From contig CACZUZ010000019.1 of assembly GCA_902784465.1 (NCBI GenBank), positions 1 to 42,124 on the forward strand: 42,124 nucleotides of DNA, in the 5' to 3' direction. A program made the position numbers and the translations under genes. Below are positions 4,649 to 42,124 of this stretch, piece by piece. The notes below the pieces were generated by a model, which saw only the letters and a list, made by a program, of their open reading frames with translations, made no database searches and had not been told where the DNA came from. How positions within the stretch are numbered: position 1 is the stretch's first letter; each line of letters begins with the position of its first letter. This DNA comes from an uncultured Bacteroidota bacterium (lineage in GTDB: Bacteria; Bacteroidota; Bacteroidia; Bacteroidales; P3).

Positions 4649-5796
4649 CTAAACGAAAAATCATAAACGACCCTGTCTACGACGGCTTTCTCAGCATCGA
4701 CGACCCCCTGCTGCTGGCTGTCATCGACCATCCCTTTTTCCAGCGGCAGCGTCGCATCAAGCAATTGGGACTCACCTGTCTCGTCTATCCCGGTGCCATG
4801 CACACCCGTTTCACGCACATGCTTGGAGCCTTGAACCTGATGTGCCGTGCCTTGGATGTGCTGCGCCAGAAGGGTGTCGAGATCACCGACGACGAGTGCC
4901 GTGGCGCAAAGCTCGCCATCTTGCTCCACGATGTCGGCCACGGGCCCTTCTCCCATACCTCGGAGCATGTGTTGGCTGATATCGCCCATGAGGATATTAC
5001 GCTCCGCATGATGAGGCAGATAGACAAGGAGTTGGGCGGAGCCTTGCAGACCGCCATAGCCATCTTCACCAACAGCTACCCCAAACATTTTCTCCACCAG
5101 CTGGTGTCGTCGCAGCTCGATATGGACCGTCTCGACTATTTGGGACGCGACAGTTTCTTCACAGGTGTCAGCGAAGGCATTGTAGGCACCGACCGTATCA
5201 TCTCGATGCTCAATGTTCACGACGACGAGCTGGTTGTCGACGAGAAAGGCATCTACAGCGTCGAGAAGTTCATCATCAGCCGCCGGCTTATGTACTGGCA
5301 AGTATATATGCACAAGACGGTTATCGCTGCCGACAACCTGCTTCTGGCCATCATCCACCGCGCCCGCCAAATAGACCCTTCCTTCTTTGCTTTCAACCCT
5401 TCGTCGCCCGACTTTTTGGATTGTTTCGCCGAGGTCGACGACGATGATGTGATGGTAGCAATCAAACAGTTCACCCATTCGAAAGACCCTCTACTTGCCA
5501 GACTCTCGTCTGACCTCCTCTGCCGACGGCTGCCGGCCATCCGCATCGACAACAACAATGAGGTCATCAGCCGTATGACTGACGAGCTGAAGTCGAAGTT
5601 CGAACACCAGCATACGCTCTTCCCCGTGACAACAGGTGTTCTCCGTAACCGATCATACGACTTTGATGACCTGGAAATAAAGGTTTTATATAAAGATGGG
5701 CGTTGTCTCCCCATCTCGGAGGCCAGCGACCAGCTCGACCACCATTTCCTCCAGAAGACTGTCACAAAGTATTTCATCTGCTTCCCCAAAATTTAA
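4645..5796 (+). CDS. HD-domain phosphohydrolase (dGTPase/SAMHD1-like fold)
   Basis: This 383-residue protein has an N-terminal HD metal-dependent phosphohydrolase domain (about 45-200) related to dGTP triphosphohydrolases. Visible features are HTRFTHMLG (His53, His58), the HD doublet LLHDVGHGPFSH (His95, Asp96), and QLDMDRLDYLGRD (about 158-169), which carries the last metal-binding Asp and the family's conserved DYL. The C-terminal half, including EVIS..DELKSKF, is typical of the longer family members. The substrate cannot be read from sequence; nucleotide hydrolysis is inferred from the family. It overlaps the preceding gene by 4 bp and is followed 27 bp later by the YARHG gene. Confidence 0.85.
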   Translation: MTKRKIINDPVYDGFLSIDDPLLLAVIDHPFFQRQRRIKQLGLTCLVYPGAMHTRFTHMLGALNLMCRALDVLRQKGVEITDDECRGAKLAILLHDVGHGPFSHTSEHVLADIAHEDITLRMMRQIDKELGGALQTAIAIFTNSYPKHFLHQLVSSQLDMDRLDYLGRDSFFTGVSEGIVGTDRIISMLNVHDDELVVDEKGIYSVEKFIISRRLMYWQVYMHKTVIAADNLLLAIIHRARQIDPSFFAFNPSSPDFLDCFAEVDDDDVMVAIKQFTHSKDPLLARLSSDLLCRRLPAIRIDNNNEVISRMTDELKSKFEHQHTLFPVTTGVLRNRSYDFDDLEIKVLYKDGRCLPISEASDQLDHHFLQKTVTKYFICFPKI

Positions 5797-35088: not shown

Positions 35089-35140
35089 AGTTATTTCGTC
35101 GTATTAATCGAATTACACCATTACACCCTACACCTAAATA

Positions 35141-35167
35141 TACACATTATAGGGGCGGAATCTTACA
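35141..35167 (-). promoter_or_regulatory. Two-box promoter-like element facing the envelope-protein operon
   Basis: On the minus strand the sequence is TGTAAGATT (35167-35159), a 10-bp spacer (CCGCCCCTAT), then AATGTGTA (35148-35141). The same two boxes with the same spacing occur on the plus strand at 35192-35218. The ATG of the 431-residue protein is at 35088, so a transcript from about 35134 would have a leader of about 46 nt. Box spacing is compatible with an ECF sigma factor promoter. Confidence 0.6.
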
Positions 35168-35191
35168 GCCAACGAAAAAATATTTTCCTTT

Positions 35192-35218
35192 TGTAAGATT
35201 TCAATCAAAAAATGTGTA
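35192..35218 (+). promoter_or_regulatory. Two-box promoter-like element facing the sigma factor gene
   Basis: TGTAAGATT (35192-35200), a 10-bp spacer (TCAATCAAAA), then AATGTGTA (35211-35218). All 17 box positions match the copy on the opposite strand, while the spacers agree at only 3 of 10 positions. The sigma gene ATG is at 35250, giving a leader of about 25 nt. This suggests autoregulation. Neither box matches the housekeeping TAnnTTTG. Confidence 0.6.
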
Positions 35219-35249
35219 CTTATATATGTAAATAAACGTTATTCCGACA

Positions 35250-36248
35250 ATGACCGACAGACACAGTGCATATACAGCCTTGTTGATGCGCCACCGCGAT
35301 ATGCTGTGGCGACTTTGTCTGAATCGCGCCGATGGCGACGGCGACCGCAGCCAGGATTTGCTACAGGAAATTACTATCGCACTGTGGCAGAACTTTGGGA
35401 AACTGCGCCGGGATGCCTCTACGGGGCAGGAACGTGCATGGGTGCGCTGGCAGGCACGTTCTGTTTTCTACCAAATAGAGAGGCGGCGAAGGATTTCAAC
35501 AGTTCCAATCGATGACAACCTTCAATCAGATAATATCGCAGACGAAGAGGCACAACAGAGAAAAGAAACACTAGACAATCTCCTCGCAGCCCTAAGTCCT
35601 GAAGAGCAACGCATGATGAGGCTTTATCTCGATGGTTATCAAGGCGACGAGATAGGAGAAAGGATGGGTATCAGCCGCAATACCGTCTATCAGAAGATAC
35701 GCCGTGCATTGCAGAAGATGCGCAACGTGGCAATAGTGCTTCTCGCAATGTTGCTCACTACAGCAATAGCGGTTGCTGTGGTTCCAGAATGGCGTCAATA
35801 CATCTTCGGTGGATGGGGAATAGAGGAAACACCCACCGACACCATTTCGGAGCCAAAAGAACCGGAACCCTCAGTATCACAACCTGAACCCCTTCCGCTG
35901 CCCTCCGCCAAGAAGGCTACCTTCCGCCAACCTCAGCTATTGGAACCGCTCCCTTCGTTGTCTACTATTCAAGCCTCACAGGGTTTTGTCTCGCCCGACA
36001 CGCTTTCTCCAATAGAAATGGATGATATGCCGACGGTATCGGTCGACGGTATGACTCTGACCATCACCGGTGCAAGTGGCGAAAAAATAAAAGTGTATGA
36101 CAATAGCGGCAAGCTGGTGGCTTGCCAGGTTGCCGGCAGCATCTGCATCATCGACCTTTTCCCTTGCACCGACGCATTTTCAAGCAGCCGCCGAAACACA
36201 TTCATCCTCCAAATCGGCAACCGCCCAACCCTGAGACTGGAACTGTGA
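35250..36248 (+). CDS. ECF sigma factor fused to a transmembrane helix and a T9SS-tail-like domain
   Basis: This 332-residue protein begins with a complete ECF sigma core. Region 2 covers about 5-80 (DRSQDLLQEITIALWQNF, then the -10-recognition part ending in FYQIERRRR). Region 4 covers about 105-158 (LSPEEQRMMRLYLDGYQGDE, RMGISRNTVYQKIRRAL helix-turn-helix). A single transmembrane helix follows directly at 160-178 (VAIVLLAMLLTTAIAVAVV), then a proline/glutamate-rich linker (about 192-235). A C-terminal beta domain (about 262-332: VSVDGMTLTITGASGEKIKV, YDNSGKLVACQ, FILQIGN) resembles a shortened T9SS sorting tail. The DNA-binding part would be cytoplasmic and the tail periplasmic. No separate anti-sigma gene is adjacent. 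It is divergent from two envelope-protein genes and faces a matching promoter-like element. Confidence 0.85.
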   Translation: MTDRHSAYTALLMRHRDMLWRLCLNRADGDGDRSQDLLQEITIALWQNFGKLRRDASTGQERAWVRWQARSVFYQIERRRRISTVPIDDNLQSDNIADEEAQQRKETLDNLLAALSPEEQRMMRLYLDGYQGDEIGERMGISRNTVYQKIRRALQKMRNVAIVLLAMLLTTAIAVAVVPEWRQYIFGGWGIEETPTDTISEPKEPEPSVSQPEPLPLPSAKKATFRQPQLLEPLPSLSTIQASQGFVSPDTLSPIEMDDMPTVSVDGMTLTITGASGEKIKVYDNSGKLVACQVAGSICIIDLFPCTDAFSSSRRNTFILQIGNRPTLRLEL

Positions 36249-38075: not shown

Positions 38076-38124
38076 GTAAAAAATTGTGAAATGTGAATGA
38101 GGAAAATGGATTTTCGGAGTTTTG

Positions 38125-38196
38125 GATTTTCAGATTTTCAGATTTTCAGATTTTCAGATTTTCAGATTTTCGGATTTTCGGATTTTCAGATTTTCG
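38125..38196. repeat. 8-bp tandem repeat (GATTTTCR, nine copies)
   Basis: Nine contiguous copies of GATTTTCA or GATTTTCG fill 38125-38196: copies 1-5 and 8 end in A, copies 6, 7 and 9 in G. The array lies about 50 bp upstream of the MFS promoter box. Confidence 0.9.
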
Positions 38197-38220
38197 GACT
38201 ATCTGATATCCGCCAGTCCG

Positions 38221-38436
38221 AATATCCAATCATCCGTCAATCCGAATATCCAATCATCCGAGTGTCCGAATATCCAATCATCCGAGTGTCCGAATATCCA
38301 ATCATCCGAGTGTCCGAAAATCCAATCATCCGCCAGTCCGAATATCCAATCATCCGAGTGTCCGAATATCCAATCATCCGTCAGTCCGAATATCCAATCA
38401 TCCGTCAATCCGAACATCCAATCATCCGAAAGTCTC
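38221..38436. repeat. 24-bp minisatellite, eight full copies plus one degenerate
   Basis: Each unit is AATATCCAATCATCCG, then a five-base variable part, then CCG. The variable part is TCAAT, AGTGT (three times), CCAGT, AGTGT, TCAGT, TCAAT, and AAAGT in the last, decayed unit. The constant part has only single-base changes. Because 24 is a multiple of three, frames remain open on both strands, but the translations are simple repeats and not real genes. There are no spacers, so it is not CRISPR. Confidence 0.92.
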
Positions 38437-38446
38437 TAATTAAACA

Positions 38447-38484
38447 AGCCGGGGCTTGCCACATTGCTGCTGCAAGCCCCGGCT
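38447..38484 (-). terminator. GC-rich hairpin ending the adhesin gene
   Basis: AGCCGGGGCTTGC (38447-38459) pairs perfectly over 13 bp with GCAAGCCCCGGCT (38472-38484). Read on the minus strand it is followed by TTGTTTAATTAG, a weak T-rich tract. It lies 55 bp after the adhesin stop codon. Confidence 0.75.
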
Positions 38485-38538
38485 CGGGATAGAAGCATTA
38501 GGGAGTAGACGTTGCTAATCGCCTAATGCTGGGAGTTG

Positions 38539-41500
38539 TTACTTCTTTACGACCTTCTTGACAGAGGTGCCGTTGGCAGTCTGGATGCGCAGCATGTAGG
38601 TGCCGGCAGTCAGGTTGCTGAGGTCGACCTTGTTGGTGCTCTCGAAGGTTGCGGCAACGCGTCCATTGATGTCCATAACCTCGACGCTAACGACATTGTC
38701 GGCATCAATGTTGACGATGCCATAGGTCGGGTTGGGGAAGACCTTCACATTGTCGAGATTGCCGGCCACATTGATGGCTTCATGTTCCTGGAAGATGGCC
38801 TCGAGAGTGGTGACATTGTCTTCGAGTGTGATGGTGCGTGGAGAATTGGTGTAGCCGTCGCTCCATTCCACGAAGTCGTAGCCTGGGTTGGCAACGGCCT
38901 CGACAGTGACTGTCTCGCCCATAGTACCGTGGTAGGTGGTCGATTGACTGCCATTGATGAGGACGTAACCCATAGCGTCGTCGTTGACGGTGACAGTGAG
39001 AGTGGCCTCCTGAGAACCGTTGGCGGCAAAGTTGGCGGTGATAGAGATAATCACACCAATCATAGATTCGTCAACTTCCAAATCGATTACCGACAGGTCG
39101 GTATCATAGATGGTGGTGTCGATGAAAGGTATGCCCATGAGCGAGATGGAGACGTCGGCAGAGGATAAGTGGTAACCCTCGTTAGGATAGACCGAGAAGT
39201 GGACGGTGTCGCCAATGGAGTACTGGTGTACGCCAGGGGCGGGATTGATGGTACCCATAGAGGCATTGTTGACGGCGGTGATGAGGGTCAGATAGCCTTC
39301 GGTGGTGGAATTGGTGTCTTCGGCGAAGTATGCAGTTACAAAGAACTTATACGCGTTGTAGCCAGCCCCGACGACGATGGGCTGATCGAAGAGGTTGAAC
39401 ACATCGGGTTCAGAAGAGCTGATGTATTGGTTGATGATGGTGTCGCTGTTCTCAAGGACGACGACATCCCAGCCTTCGAGCATGTGACCCGGGTAAGGTA
39501 TAGCGATGACACTACAGGTATCACCCTCGTAGAGATAGTGTGTGCCGGGAGCAGGGCTGGTAGTACCCATGGCGGCATTGTTGACAGCGATATTCACCAG
39601 CATGCTGTCGCTCTCGTAAGGATAGTTGAAGAAGAGAGCGGTGAATGAGATGGGGCTGGCATCGTACCAGTAGTCGCCATCGATACTGATAACGTTGTTG
39701 GTGGCTCCCATGGCGGTGTCGTAATAGACAGTGCCATTAACGTTGTAGGAATATGCCCAGCCGTGGAAGTAGTAGCCGGCGTTGGGGGTGGCTGTCACCG
39801 ACATGATGTCGAAACGGCCAATCTGATAGGTGCCGGGGGCGGGGTTGGTCGTACCCATGGTGGCGTCGTTGACTGCTATGTTGACAGTGAGCGAGTCGAC
39901 ATCGACAAAGAGGTCGACGGTGGCGTTGGAGCTGCAGACGTTGGAAACGACGGCGAAGAGGGTGTCGGGCAACATTTCACCGCTGACGATGTTAAAGAGC
40001 TCGCCGTTGCTGTTACTCACGATGAAGGAGACTTCGTCGTCATAAGAGCCGGGCAGCCAATAGAATTGGACGGGATAATCGCTGCACACCTCGATGGTGT
40101 CGCTATCGTATCCCATGTCAACAGTGAACGTGTGGATTGTAGTATTATTCTGTTTGACTTGGATGCTGCCGCCATTCCAGCCATCACCATAGGCGTCGGA
40201 GCCGCTGATGACGAGGTCGCAAGTAGTGCCGTTGCAGGCCAGATCCTCTTCAAAGATTGCGGTGAAGGTGAGGGGAGTGAGGTTGGAGAGGTTAGCCGAG
40301 AGAGTAGCCGGATTGTCGACAATAGTGGTTGTGGTGAGAGCGCCGGTATAGTAGTAAGAGACATCCCAATGCGAGAAATGGTAGCCAGGGAAAGCGGTGG
40401 CGCTAATGGTGAGGTTTGTGCCGTCGGCAATCTGATAGATGCCCGGTGCGGGAGTGACGGTACCCATGGTGGCGTCATTCACAGCCATGATGTAGGTCGC
40501 AGTGTCGGGATTTTGAGGAACAGTGCCTGATGTGAAGACTGCCTTGAGGTTCACGTTGTTGGCAGCCATGAAGGTGTAGGGGTTGTCGGTGCTGACAACG
40601 CTGTCGTTGTCATCGGTCCAGTTGTCAAAGGCGTAGCCGGTGTTAGGAGTGGCAGTGACAGTGACATTGTCGCCGGTGGTGTAGACACCATTGCCAGAGA
40701 CCGTGCCGTAGAAAGCATCGTTGGCGCTGACGTTGACCACGACTTGGTTGGCGTTGGGCTGTTCGCGGATGGTGAAGTTGTCGAGAGTAAGCCAGTACTC
40801 GTCGGAGCAATCCCAATGGCGGAGTGCAAGGTAAATTGACTGGCCAGCGTAAGCGCTGAGGTTGACGACAGGGTAGGTCGGGTCGTCGTTTGAGGTCAGC
40901 GTCCACTGCTGAAGGAGAGTGAAAGCTGTGGTGTCGTTAGTGGTGGTCGAGACATAGAGTCCGTAGTGTTCGGCAGGATAATTGACATCCTGAGGACGTG
41001 CGCTCCACGACACTTCATAGTTGGAGTTGGAAGGCAGTGTGATTTGAGGGCTGATGAGCCAGTTGTCGGGAGTCAAGACTCCCACGTTGTTCATATACGA
41101 TTTCGAGTTGAAAACATTAACACCCTGGTAAGAATCAATTTCCCATGAGAGGCCGTCGCCGTCGCCGTCGATGATTGTCCAGCAGGTAGGCATGGTCTCG
41201 AAAGTCTCGGTGTAGGGCAGGGTCACAGTGCAGTCGTCAGTGGAGTCGGTACCGGTTTCGCTGACAGTAACGCTGTCGATCCAAGCATAGTAGCTGAAGG
41301 TGCCATAGTAATTGACGGCTAATTTCACAGCATTGGCGGGGATGATGGTCTCATAGGTCTGGAAGTCGGTCTGGCCTGTGGTGCTGTGGCTGGTGGCATC
41401 CCATACTGTGTCGGTAGCGGTGATGTAGCCGAAGGTGAGCTGGTCGTTGTTGCCGTGTGTTGCGTAGTGTACCTTGACGTTCAGTGCAGTGGCATCGTTG

Positions 41501-42124
41501 CTGACGACAAAGTCAGGTGAATAGCCATACTGGTTGTAGTCGCTGGCGGAGGTATAGGAGCTGAAACGCCAGCAGCTGGCGTTGTTGATGGTGACAAAAC
41601 CCATACCATTGGATGTACCTACATCGTTGGCGCTGTTGTTGGAGACGAATGTCCAGCAGTTGCGAGTGGCGCTGGTCTCGGCGAAGTCTTCAACGTAAGG
41701 CAGGGTCGAGGCTACGCAAGCAGTGTTGACGACGGTGCTGACGACGGTGCTTTCCTCGCTGCCACAGACAGATGCAACACCAAAGGTGTATTGAGTCATG
41801 GGTGACAGGCCGGTGACAGTGTAGCTGTTGTTTGAGGTGTTGCCAAGCAATGTCACAGTACCGACAGTGCTCAGGTCGTAGACGTTGTAGCTGTCGGCGG
41901 TGCCGTTCCAAGACAGTGTGACGTTGTTGGCGGTGACATTGTCGGCAACGACGCCGGTGGGAGCCATGCAAGAGGGCACCTCAGTCACGGTGAGGGTGTA
42001 GTCCTCTGCTATGGAGTAGGAGCCGGAGAAGCATGGGTTGGCACTGGCAGCATCTTCGATAGAGCCTGTAAAGCTGTCAAGAAGGTTGTCGGCGGCAGCG
42101 ATACGCATACGGTAGTTGCCGACA
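38539..42124 (-). CDS. Large T9SS-exported adhesin-like protein (C-terminal part, start outside window)
   Basis: The frame is open to the window's right edge, where GNYRMRIAAAD looks like the end of a GEVED-type domain, so the N-terminus is missing. Counting from the first Met inside the window (42108), a fibronectin type III domain spans about 48-128. Two cleaved-adhesin/MAM-like domains span about 136-285 (LPYVEDFAETS, NCWTF) and about 293-450 (LPYTETFETMPTCWTI, NWLISPQITLP). About seven bacterial repeats follow (about 460-1110), several sharing VNDATMGTxxPAPGTY. A T9SS type A tail ends the protein (about 1122-1189: KVFPNPTYGIVNID, EVMDINGRVAATF, KKVVKK). It is probably a surface or secreted adhesin. 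The last repeat and tail closely resemble those of the C10 peptidase. Confidence 0.88.
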   Translation of the reverse strand, partial: VGNYRMRIAAADNLLDSFTGSIEDAASANPCFSGSYSIAEDYTLTVTEVPSCMAPTGVVADNVTANNVTLSWNGTADSYNVYDLSTVGTVTLLGNTSNNSYTVTGLSPMTQYTFGVASVCGSEESTVVSTVVNTACVASTLPYVEDFAETSATRNCWTFVSNNSANDVGTSNGMGFVTINNASCWRFSSYTSASDYNQYGYSPDFVVSNDATALNVKVHYATHGNNDQLTFGYITATDTVWDATSHSTTGQTDFQTYETIIPANAVKLAVNYYGTFSYYAWIDSVTVSETGTDSTDDCTVTLPYTETFETMPTCWTIIDGDGDGLSWEIDSYQGVNVFNSKSYMNNVGVLTPDNWLISPQITLPSNSNYEVSWSARPQDVNYPAEHYGLYVSTTTNDTTAFTLLQQWTLTSNDDPTYPVVNLSAYAGQSIYLALRHWDCSDEYWLTLDNFTIREQPNANQVVVNVSANDAFYGTVSGNGVYTTGDNVTVTATPNTGYAFDNWTDDNDSVVSTDNPYTFMAANNVNLKAVFTSGTVPQNPDTATYIMAVNDATMGTVTPAPGIYQIADGTNLTISATAFPGYHFSHWDVSYYYTGALTTTTIVDNPATLSANLSNLTPLTFTAIFEEDLACNGTTCDLVISGSDAYGDGWNGGSIQVKQNNTTIHTFTVDMGYDSDTIEVCSDYPVQFYWLPGSYDDEVSFIVSNSNGELFNIVSGEMLPDTLFAVVSNVCSSNATVDLFVDVDSLTVNIAVNDATMGTTNPAPGTYQIGRFDIMSVTATPNAGYYFHGWAYSYNVNGTVYYDTAMGATNNVISIDGDYWYDASPISFTALFFNYPYESDSMLVNIAVNNAAMGTTSPAPGTHYLYEGDTCSVIAIPYPGHMLEGWDVVVLENSDTIINQYISSSEPDVFNLFDQPIVVGAGYNAYKFFVTAYFAEDTNSTTEGYLTLITAVNNASMGTINPAPGVHQYSIGDTVHFSVYPNEGYHLSSADVSISLMGIPFIDTTIYDTDLSVIDLEVDESMIGVIISITANFAANGSQEATLTVTVNDDAMGYVLINGSQSTTYHGTMGETVTVEAVANPGYDFVEWSDGYTNSPRTITLEDNVTTLEAIFQEHEAINVAGNLDNVKVFPNPTYGIVNIDADNVVSVEVMDINGRVAATFESTNKVDLSNLTAGTYMLRIQTANGTSVKKVVKK

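Follow-up and report, generated by a model that had tools for sequence, protein, structure and literature searches.

A mirrored pair of putative ECF-type promoters beside the gene for a predicted membrane-tethered sigma factor in an uncultured Bacteroidota bacterium

Which protein reads the mirrored boxes that lie between an extracytoplasmic function (ECF) sigma factor gene and a divergent two-gene operon, and what would such a pair do? The locus lies in a stretch of 42,124 nucleotides, referred to here as the window (positions 1 to 42,124 of contig CACZUZ010000019.1, assembly GCA_902784465.1), from an uncultured gut bacterium of the Bacteroidota (2.53 Mb in 88 contigs, 84% complete). The element in question, TGTAAGATT-N10-AATGTGTA, occurs as one exact copy per strand, the copies facing the sigma gene and the operon, whose products are called P2 and P3. 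A preliminary description had interpreted them as promoters through which the sigma factor drives itself and a dedicated operon. The pair is real, and comparison of sequences supports the promoter interpretation and extends it. We consider it probable that these are back-to-back ECF-type promoters firing outward and read by the adjacent sigma factor, which would be membrane-tethered, freed by proteolysis and autoregulated.

The mirrored pair and its conservation

Both copies were placed by exact-match search where the preliminary description had put them (Table 1), and direct reading of the window confirmed that all 17 box positions are identical between them and that the 10-bp spacers are alike at 3. 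Within the window, no third match to the 27-base element was found at up to three mismatches (shuffle expectation 0.14), and two matches were reached in only 1 of 100 shuffles. The genome-wide motif search proposed earlier returned nine matches at up to three mismatches in the source genome, the window pair being the only perfect ones. From the last box base it is 31 nt to the ATG of the sigma gene and 52 nt to that of the divergent gene.

For comparison, 59 loci were fetched by similarity to the sigma protein and the 39 with a long match were kept, leaving out one truncated by a contig end and 19 matching regions 2–4 only. The core pattern drawn from the relatives, TGTMAGATT-N13-GNGTA, was present at up to one mismatch within 330 nt upstream of 35 of the 39 sigma homologues (29 exact), against 0.03 loci with the core in Markov-resampled sequences. 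At the remaining four (L112, L114, L122 and L140), an exact site stands before the preceding same-strand gene or gene pair. P2 and P3 are also linked with the sigma gene in different arrangements, sigma-P2-P3 at L107 and P2-P3-sigma at L114 and L122. Occurrence of the site followed the sigma gene: where a genome's sigma match was strong, 34 of 35 had a site, where it was middling 13 of 25, and where it was weak or lacking 3 of 29; because these genomes are kin, the test value of this co-occurrence is only descriptive.

A mirror copy was present in 14 of the 39 sigma loci, with a gap between copies of 23–24 bp in seven, 44–45 bp in four and 89–94 bp in three, and was not present in the other 25 within the stretch examined. 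Six divergent intergenic regions, from loci fetched by protein yet chosen for a divergent neighbour and a pair, were aligned with plain MAFFT, giving pairwise identities of 0.93–1.00 in the boxes, 0.45 and 0.55 in the spacers, 0.33 in the gap and 0.41 in the rest, as expected earlier for conserved boxes with unconserved spacers. The box identity of 0.96–0.97 in the set of pairs is partly by construction, since these pairs are exact pattern matches, and the MAFFT figure is the fairer one. The divergent target varies (P2-P3 in the window, BspA-type proteins in most of the nearest relatives with the pair) and the promoter pair stays the same.

The inverted layout and the near-constant 23–25 bp between the -35-like boxes in ten back-to-back pairs would also suit an operator, with the mirrored boxes as two repressor half-sites or an interrupted palindrome, or a DNA or RNA hairpin, and an RNA hairpin is predicted through the boxes. 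We hold such an operator to be very improbable. Single copies in fixed orientation near start codons outnumber the pairs, the distance between copies is different at other loci, and the two spacers within a pair are no more alike than by chance (0.22), which bears out the earlier view that the element is not one long palindrome. An unpaired element before many single genes is not explained by a repressor palindrome; a long palindrome or repressor site was rejected on the spacers, the unpaired copies and the varying inter-copy distance. The RNA hairpin was likewise rejected: its stem is predicted, but it would require a transcript spanning both promoters. An inverted-repeat search returned none, though 9-base arms are plain in the sequence, and this result was not relied on.

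Refined element and related sites in the genus

The borders of the second box had been misplaced in the preliminary description, since its 'AAT' columns are variable in relatives and the conserved bases run on past GTGTA. Over 111 distinct sites in relatives, the 'AAT' columns carry 0.27–0.59 bits, against 0.94–1.55 bits for the seven-base TTATATT that follows GTGTA. TTATATT is absent from the search pattern, so its conservation is evidence independent of that pattern. The refined element is TGTMAGATTT-N12-GNGTATTATATT, with 'AAT' outside it and a spacing of 17 bp from TGTMA to GNGTA.

The core was searched in 148 genomes, 89 of the genus and 59 of other genera. Within the genus 142 matches were found (reversed pattern, 7) and outside it 11 (reversed pattern, 3); among the out-of-genus matches listed (8 of 11), none lay within 60 nt of the start of a regulon-type gene. 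The neighbours of the 142 sites were ECF sigma genes (58), BspA-type leucine-rich repeat (LRR) genes (32), P2 relatives (16), P3/CarboxypepD-type genes (7), lipoprotein-like genes (7), signal-peptide-like genes (6), other open reading frames (ORFs; 8) or none (8), with identical 27-mers given one shared class and 13 of the 142 sites assigned from coordinates. Comparison with relatives suggests that the window boxes belong to a genus-wide promoter family in which, as in ECF-type promoters, two conserved boxes a constant distance apart precede the sigma gene and targets. Of the earlier claim that the sigma factor drives itself and a dedicated operon, the promoter part is supported; the target set appears wider than one dedicated operon and extends to BspA-type proteins, lipoproteins and other sigma genes.

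Sigma genes follow 57 of the 141 distinct in-genus sites in fetched loci; at 42 of those 57 the core ends no more than 14 nt before the start codon, so that the messages may have very short leaders. For Bacteroides thetaiotaomicron, leaders shorter than 10 nt are given as only about 3.7% (PMC7366714). The source genome holds five exact core sites and eight with one mismatch (reversed pattern, two altogether); besides the window pair, exact sites lie before a lipoprotein-like ORF (C67:5196) and before an ORF running off its contig (C67:6246). At 14022–14327 of L166 (G000:C26), an exact site is followed by an ORF of 79 amino acids (aa) that resembles only the start of a BspA-type protein and may be a broken target gene. 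At 878–1132 of L165 (G000:C67), an 84-aa ORF with a promoter-like site on one side and a BspA-type gene on the other resembles the beginning of an ECF sigma protein and may be a remnant.

The boxes could instead be promoters read by a plain ECF paralogue encoded in the source genome, the membrane sigma factor being only a target. Three close plain ECF paralogues are found there (sigma profile, E 1e-46 to 3e-33), sister motifs occur in the same genome, and plain sigma genes stand behind many of the sites. This explanation is judged unlikely. Sites are nearly universal before the genes for tailed sigma factors, and the sub-motif sorts with the sigma type: TGTAAG is combined with GCGTA at 8 of the 17 sites whose sigma gene has no detected tail, and at 0 of the 40 whose sigma gene has one. 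The sister motifs of the source genome (TGTMAGATTTG...TACGTM) lie at 5236 and 8152 of L167 (G000:C65), 389 of L166 (C26) and 756 of L165 (C67); some precede plain ECF sigma genes and suggest paralogues with slightly different -10 boxes.

Architecture of the sigma protein and its tail

The sigma protein has regions 2 and 4 without region 3, as an ECF sigma factor does. TIGR02937 was matched at 2.2e-20, above its cut-off, as was PF08281, with PF04542 one bit below; the predicted sigma fold matches SigH, AlgU, SigK and others. Pfam-matched region 4 stops at residue 157 and the hydrophobic segment begins at 160, leaving no room between them, and the full-length model has a continuous helix from 143 to 177. 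The hydropathy peak is 2.64–3.22 in 26 of 26 homologues, as against 0.43–0.99 in five plain ECF proteins of the source genome. From sequence and model together, the sigma factor appears to be membrane-tethered, its C-terminal part presumably facing the periplasm. No separate anti-sigma gene was seen beside the sigma gene.

The C-terminal domain was modelled from 22 rows, including two sigma-cargo fusions and one cargo protein, as a 75-aa beta-sandwich of seven strands, and a full-length model built on sigma rows only gave the same seven strands. Foldseek comparison with the PDB returned type IX secretion system (T9SS) sorting domains as the five best matches, with weak E-values, and the best fold matches comprised sorting-type and Ig-like sandwiches. 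A profile of 26 sigma tails, run against all 1113 ORFs of at least 120 aa in the window and loci L106–L169 with no pre-selection, matched the tails of cargo-type proteins that lack a sigma domain, among them a BspA-type protein of the source genome at 3.4e-9; profile-profile comparison with 14 cargo tails, themselves picked by a regular expression resembling the sigma tail, gave E 3.9e-13. The divergent BspA-type proteins of the closest relatives (e.g. L108, L111 and L115) carry ordinary T9SS tails, which the profile missed or matched only above E 1 (L116). Curated T9SS cut-offs were not reached by the tail (TIGR04183, 13.1 bits against 23), and PF18962 was not among the window-domain matches. 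A sorting-domain alignment compared with PDB sequences gave no T9SS domain among the matches listed (60 of 126), only WD-repeat and ribosomal L6 types.

The sigma factor might be membrane-tethered and yet end in a generic Ig-like sensor domain with no T9SS connection, a possibility to be taken seriously, if short of even. The profile matches to cargo-type tails speak against it, as do the Foldseek ranking and five sigma-LRR-tail fusion proteins found in relatives. The sigma domains, the hydrophobic helix and the tail's relatedness to tails of T9SS cargo are results of computation; from sequence and modelled fold, the tail seems to be related to the sorting domains of T9SS cargo.

Three fusions of about 800 aa (L143:5998–8385, L138:4878–7217 and L130, 815 aa) have the order sigma, transmembrane helix, BspA-type LRR, tail; in at least those of L143 and L138, another signal-peptide-like stretch lies in mid-protein, which makes their topology puzzling. 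The label 'LRRstub' is unreliable for proteins of 320–340 aa. As the LRR profile includes the cargo tail, proteins were regrouped by length for the tree, in which long fusions fall in at least three places among the short forms; no direction of evolution is therefore claimed. An origin by sigma-cargo fusion and loss of repeats, prompted by 492-aa intermediates, was dropped, as the scattered long fusions give no direction. Downstream of the sigma gene, several loci have recurring neighbours: L132, L136 and L145 have a P3-like gene, then a 267–271-aa protein (ITGASSGFGKA) on the opposite strand and a protein of about 1140 aa, and the 267-aa neighbour also occurs at L130.

Elsewhere in the window, the P3 gene overlaps the end of the P2 gene by 4 bp. 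A short ORF of repeated FSDFQIF and IIRQSEYP units lies beside a transporter gene (38097–38492), and near the sigma locus 38539–42108 on the minus strand encodes a protein of 1189 aa that ends in an ordinary T9SS-type tail (KVFPNP...KKVVKK).

Table 1. Positions of the features described, in window coordinates.
Feature	Position	Strand	Remarks
Sigma-facing promoter (putative)	35192..35218	+	-35-like TGTAAGATT 35192–35200, spacer, -10-like GTGTA 35214–35218
Expected TTATATT extension, sigma-facing promoter	35219–35225	+	reads CTTATAT
Target-facing promoter (putative), mirror copy	35141..35167	-	same boxes; extension expected at 35140–35134, reads TATTTAG
A/T-rich middle between the two -35-like boxes	35168..35191		24 bp; sequence not conserved (0.33)
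ECF sigma factor gene, 332 aa	35250..36248	+	region 2, residues 11–80; region 4, residues 106–157
Sigma protein beyond region 4			hydrophobic segment, residues 160–178; disordered, 189–257; beta-sandwich, 262–331
Predicted transmembrane helix, residues 160–178	35727..35783	+	starts at end of sigma region 4
C-terminal beta-sandwich, residues 262–331, presumed periplasmic	36033..36242	+	seems related to T9SS cargo sorting domains
Divergent gene 1, P2, 431 aa	33793..35088	-	signal-peptide-like start, CarboxypepD_reg-like domain
Divergent gene 2, P3, 198 aa	33200..33796	-	CarboxypepD_reg-like domain, just under Pfam cut-off

Proposed mechanism and known systems

In the proposed mechanism, the -35-like TGTMAGATT and the -10-like GNGTATTATATT would form two promoters, one firing into the sigma gene and the other into the P2-P3 operon, with transcription presumably starting at both and the window sigma factor, not a paralogue, as the likely reader. 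Basal sigma protein would be inserted in the inner membrane and inactive. A signal at the periplasmic domain would lead to cleavage by regulated proteolysis, and the freed sigma domain would start transcription at both window promoters and a few other sites, acting on envelope and T9SS-cargo genes, with autoregulation amplifying the response. The boldest candidate for the signal is the state of the T9SS itself. It is a real possibility, though short of even, that the sigma factor is a built-in T9SS sensor which, on the periplasmic face of the inner membrane, displays a decoy of the tag by which cargo is exported. Whether the export machinery is free, jammed or pulling would then decide between tag binding and cleavage with sigma release, and released sigma would drive more cargo, envelope partners and itself. 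If so, the sigma-BspA cargo fusions, in their separate tree places, would be variants of the same device.

Several points weigh against outward-firing promoters read by this sigma factor. The TTATATT extension is only partly matched by both window copies, and 16 of the 142 sites lack a regulon-type gene downstream. The genomes in the co-occurrence count, as said, are not independent. Sister motifs accompany the plain ECF paralogues (TACGTA/TACGTC in the source genome, TGCGTA in relatives), so that cross-recognition is possible. The RNA fold of the region through the boxes has a z of -2.6, with 3 of 200 shuffles equally good. No anti-sigma family was found among the Pfam matches of the sigma protein, and no protease was identified.

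ECF sigma factors with autoregulated, divergent promoters belong to general ECF biology. The window system shares with them regions 2 and 4, two-part promoters and self-activation, and differs in that no separate anti-sigma gene neighbours the sigma gene and the paired promoters share a 24-bp middle. Precedents for its parts are found in three described systems. For proteolytic release there is IutY of Pseudomonas putida (ECF243), in which sigma factor and membrane part form one polypeptide freed by proteolysis (PMC8999054). A transmembrane helix inside the sigma polypeptide is likewise predicted here, as in IutY and actinobacterial ECF48/52/53; as described there, however, these carry a fused anti-sigma part (a zinc-finger-type domain in ECF48/52/53; PMC8999054), whereas region 4 of the window protein runs directly into the helix, and a sorting-domain-like beta-sandwich forms its outer part. 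For an envelope-spanning sigma fusion there is Dma3 of B. thetaiotaomicron, whose N-terminal sigma domain is part of a protein that spans the envelope (PMC13088901). Dma3 shares with the window protein the phylum and the N-terminal sigma domain, and its family a transmembrane helix and a disordered tether (PMC13088901); Dma proteins end, by their published description, in an outer-membrane beta-barrel; the window sigma has no such barrel in its model, which ends in the seven-strand sandwich.

For a link between sorting domain and sigma factor there is PorA-PorXY-SigP of Porphyromonas gingivalis, in which an ECF sigma factor receives input from a protein with a T9SS sorting domain (PMC7712824; PMC4800418). 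There, the two are described as separate proteins joined by a two-component system, and the SigP motif, as reported, is unlike the window element. With the T9SS type A sorting domain (TIGR04183/PF18962; RgpB, RemA and RemZ structures) the window tail shares, via cargo-type tails of the genus, a profile relation, and its modelled fold may be similar; it differs in lying below the curated cut-offs and in being attached to a sigma factor and membrane helix.

Self-regulation of ECF sigma factors is familiar; the genus-wide promoter family and the sorting-domain-like tail on a membrane sigma factor, like any sigma factor with a T9SS-like domain, were absent from the papers listed by searches of the open PMC subset. 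Many ECF sigma factors of the Bacteroidota have no known promoter or signal. Here a promoter family, the probable sigma factors and the target classes can be read together across one genus, which makes the match of sigma factor and promoter directly testable. If true, a sigma tail resembling a T9SS tag would suggest how one protein reads secretion load without a two-component system.
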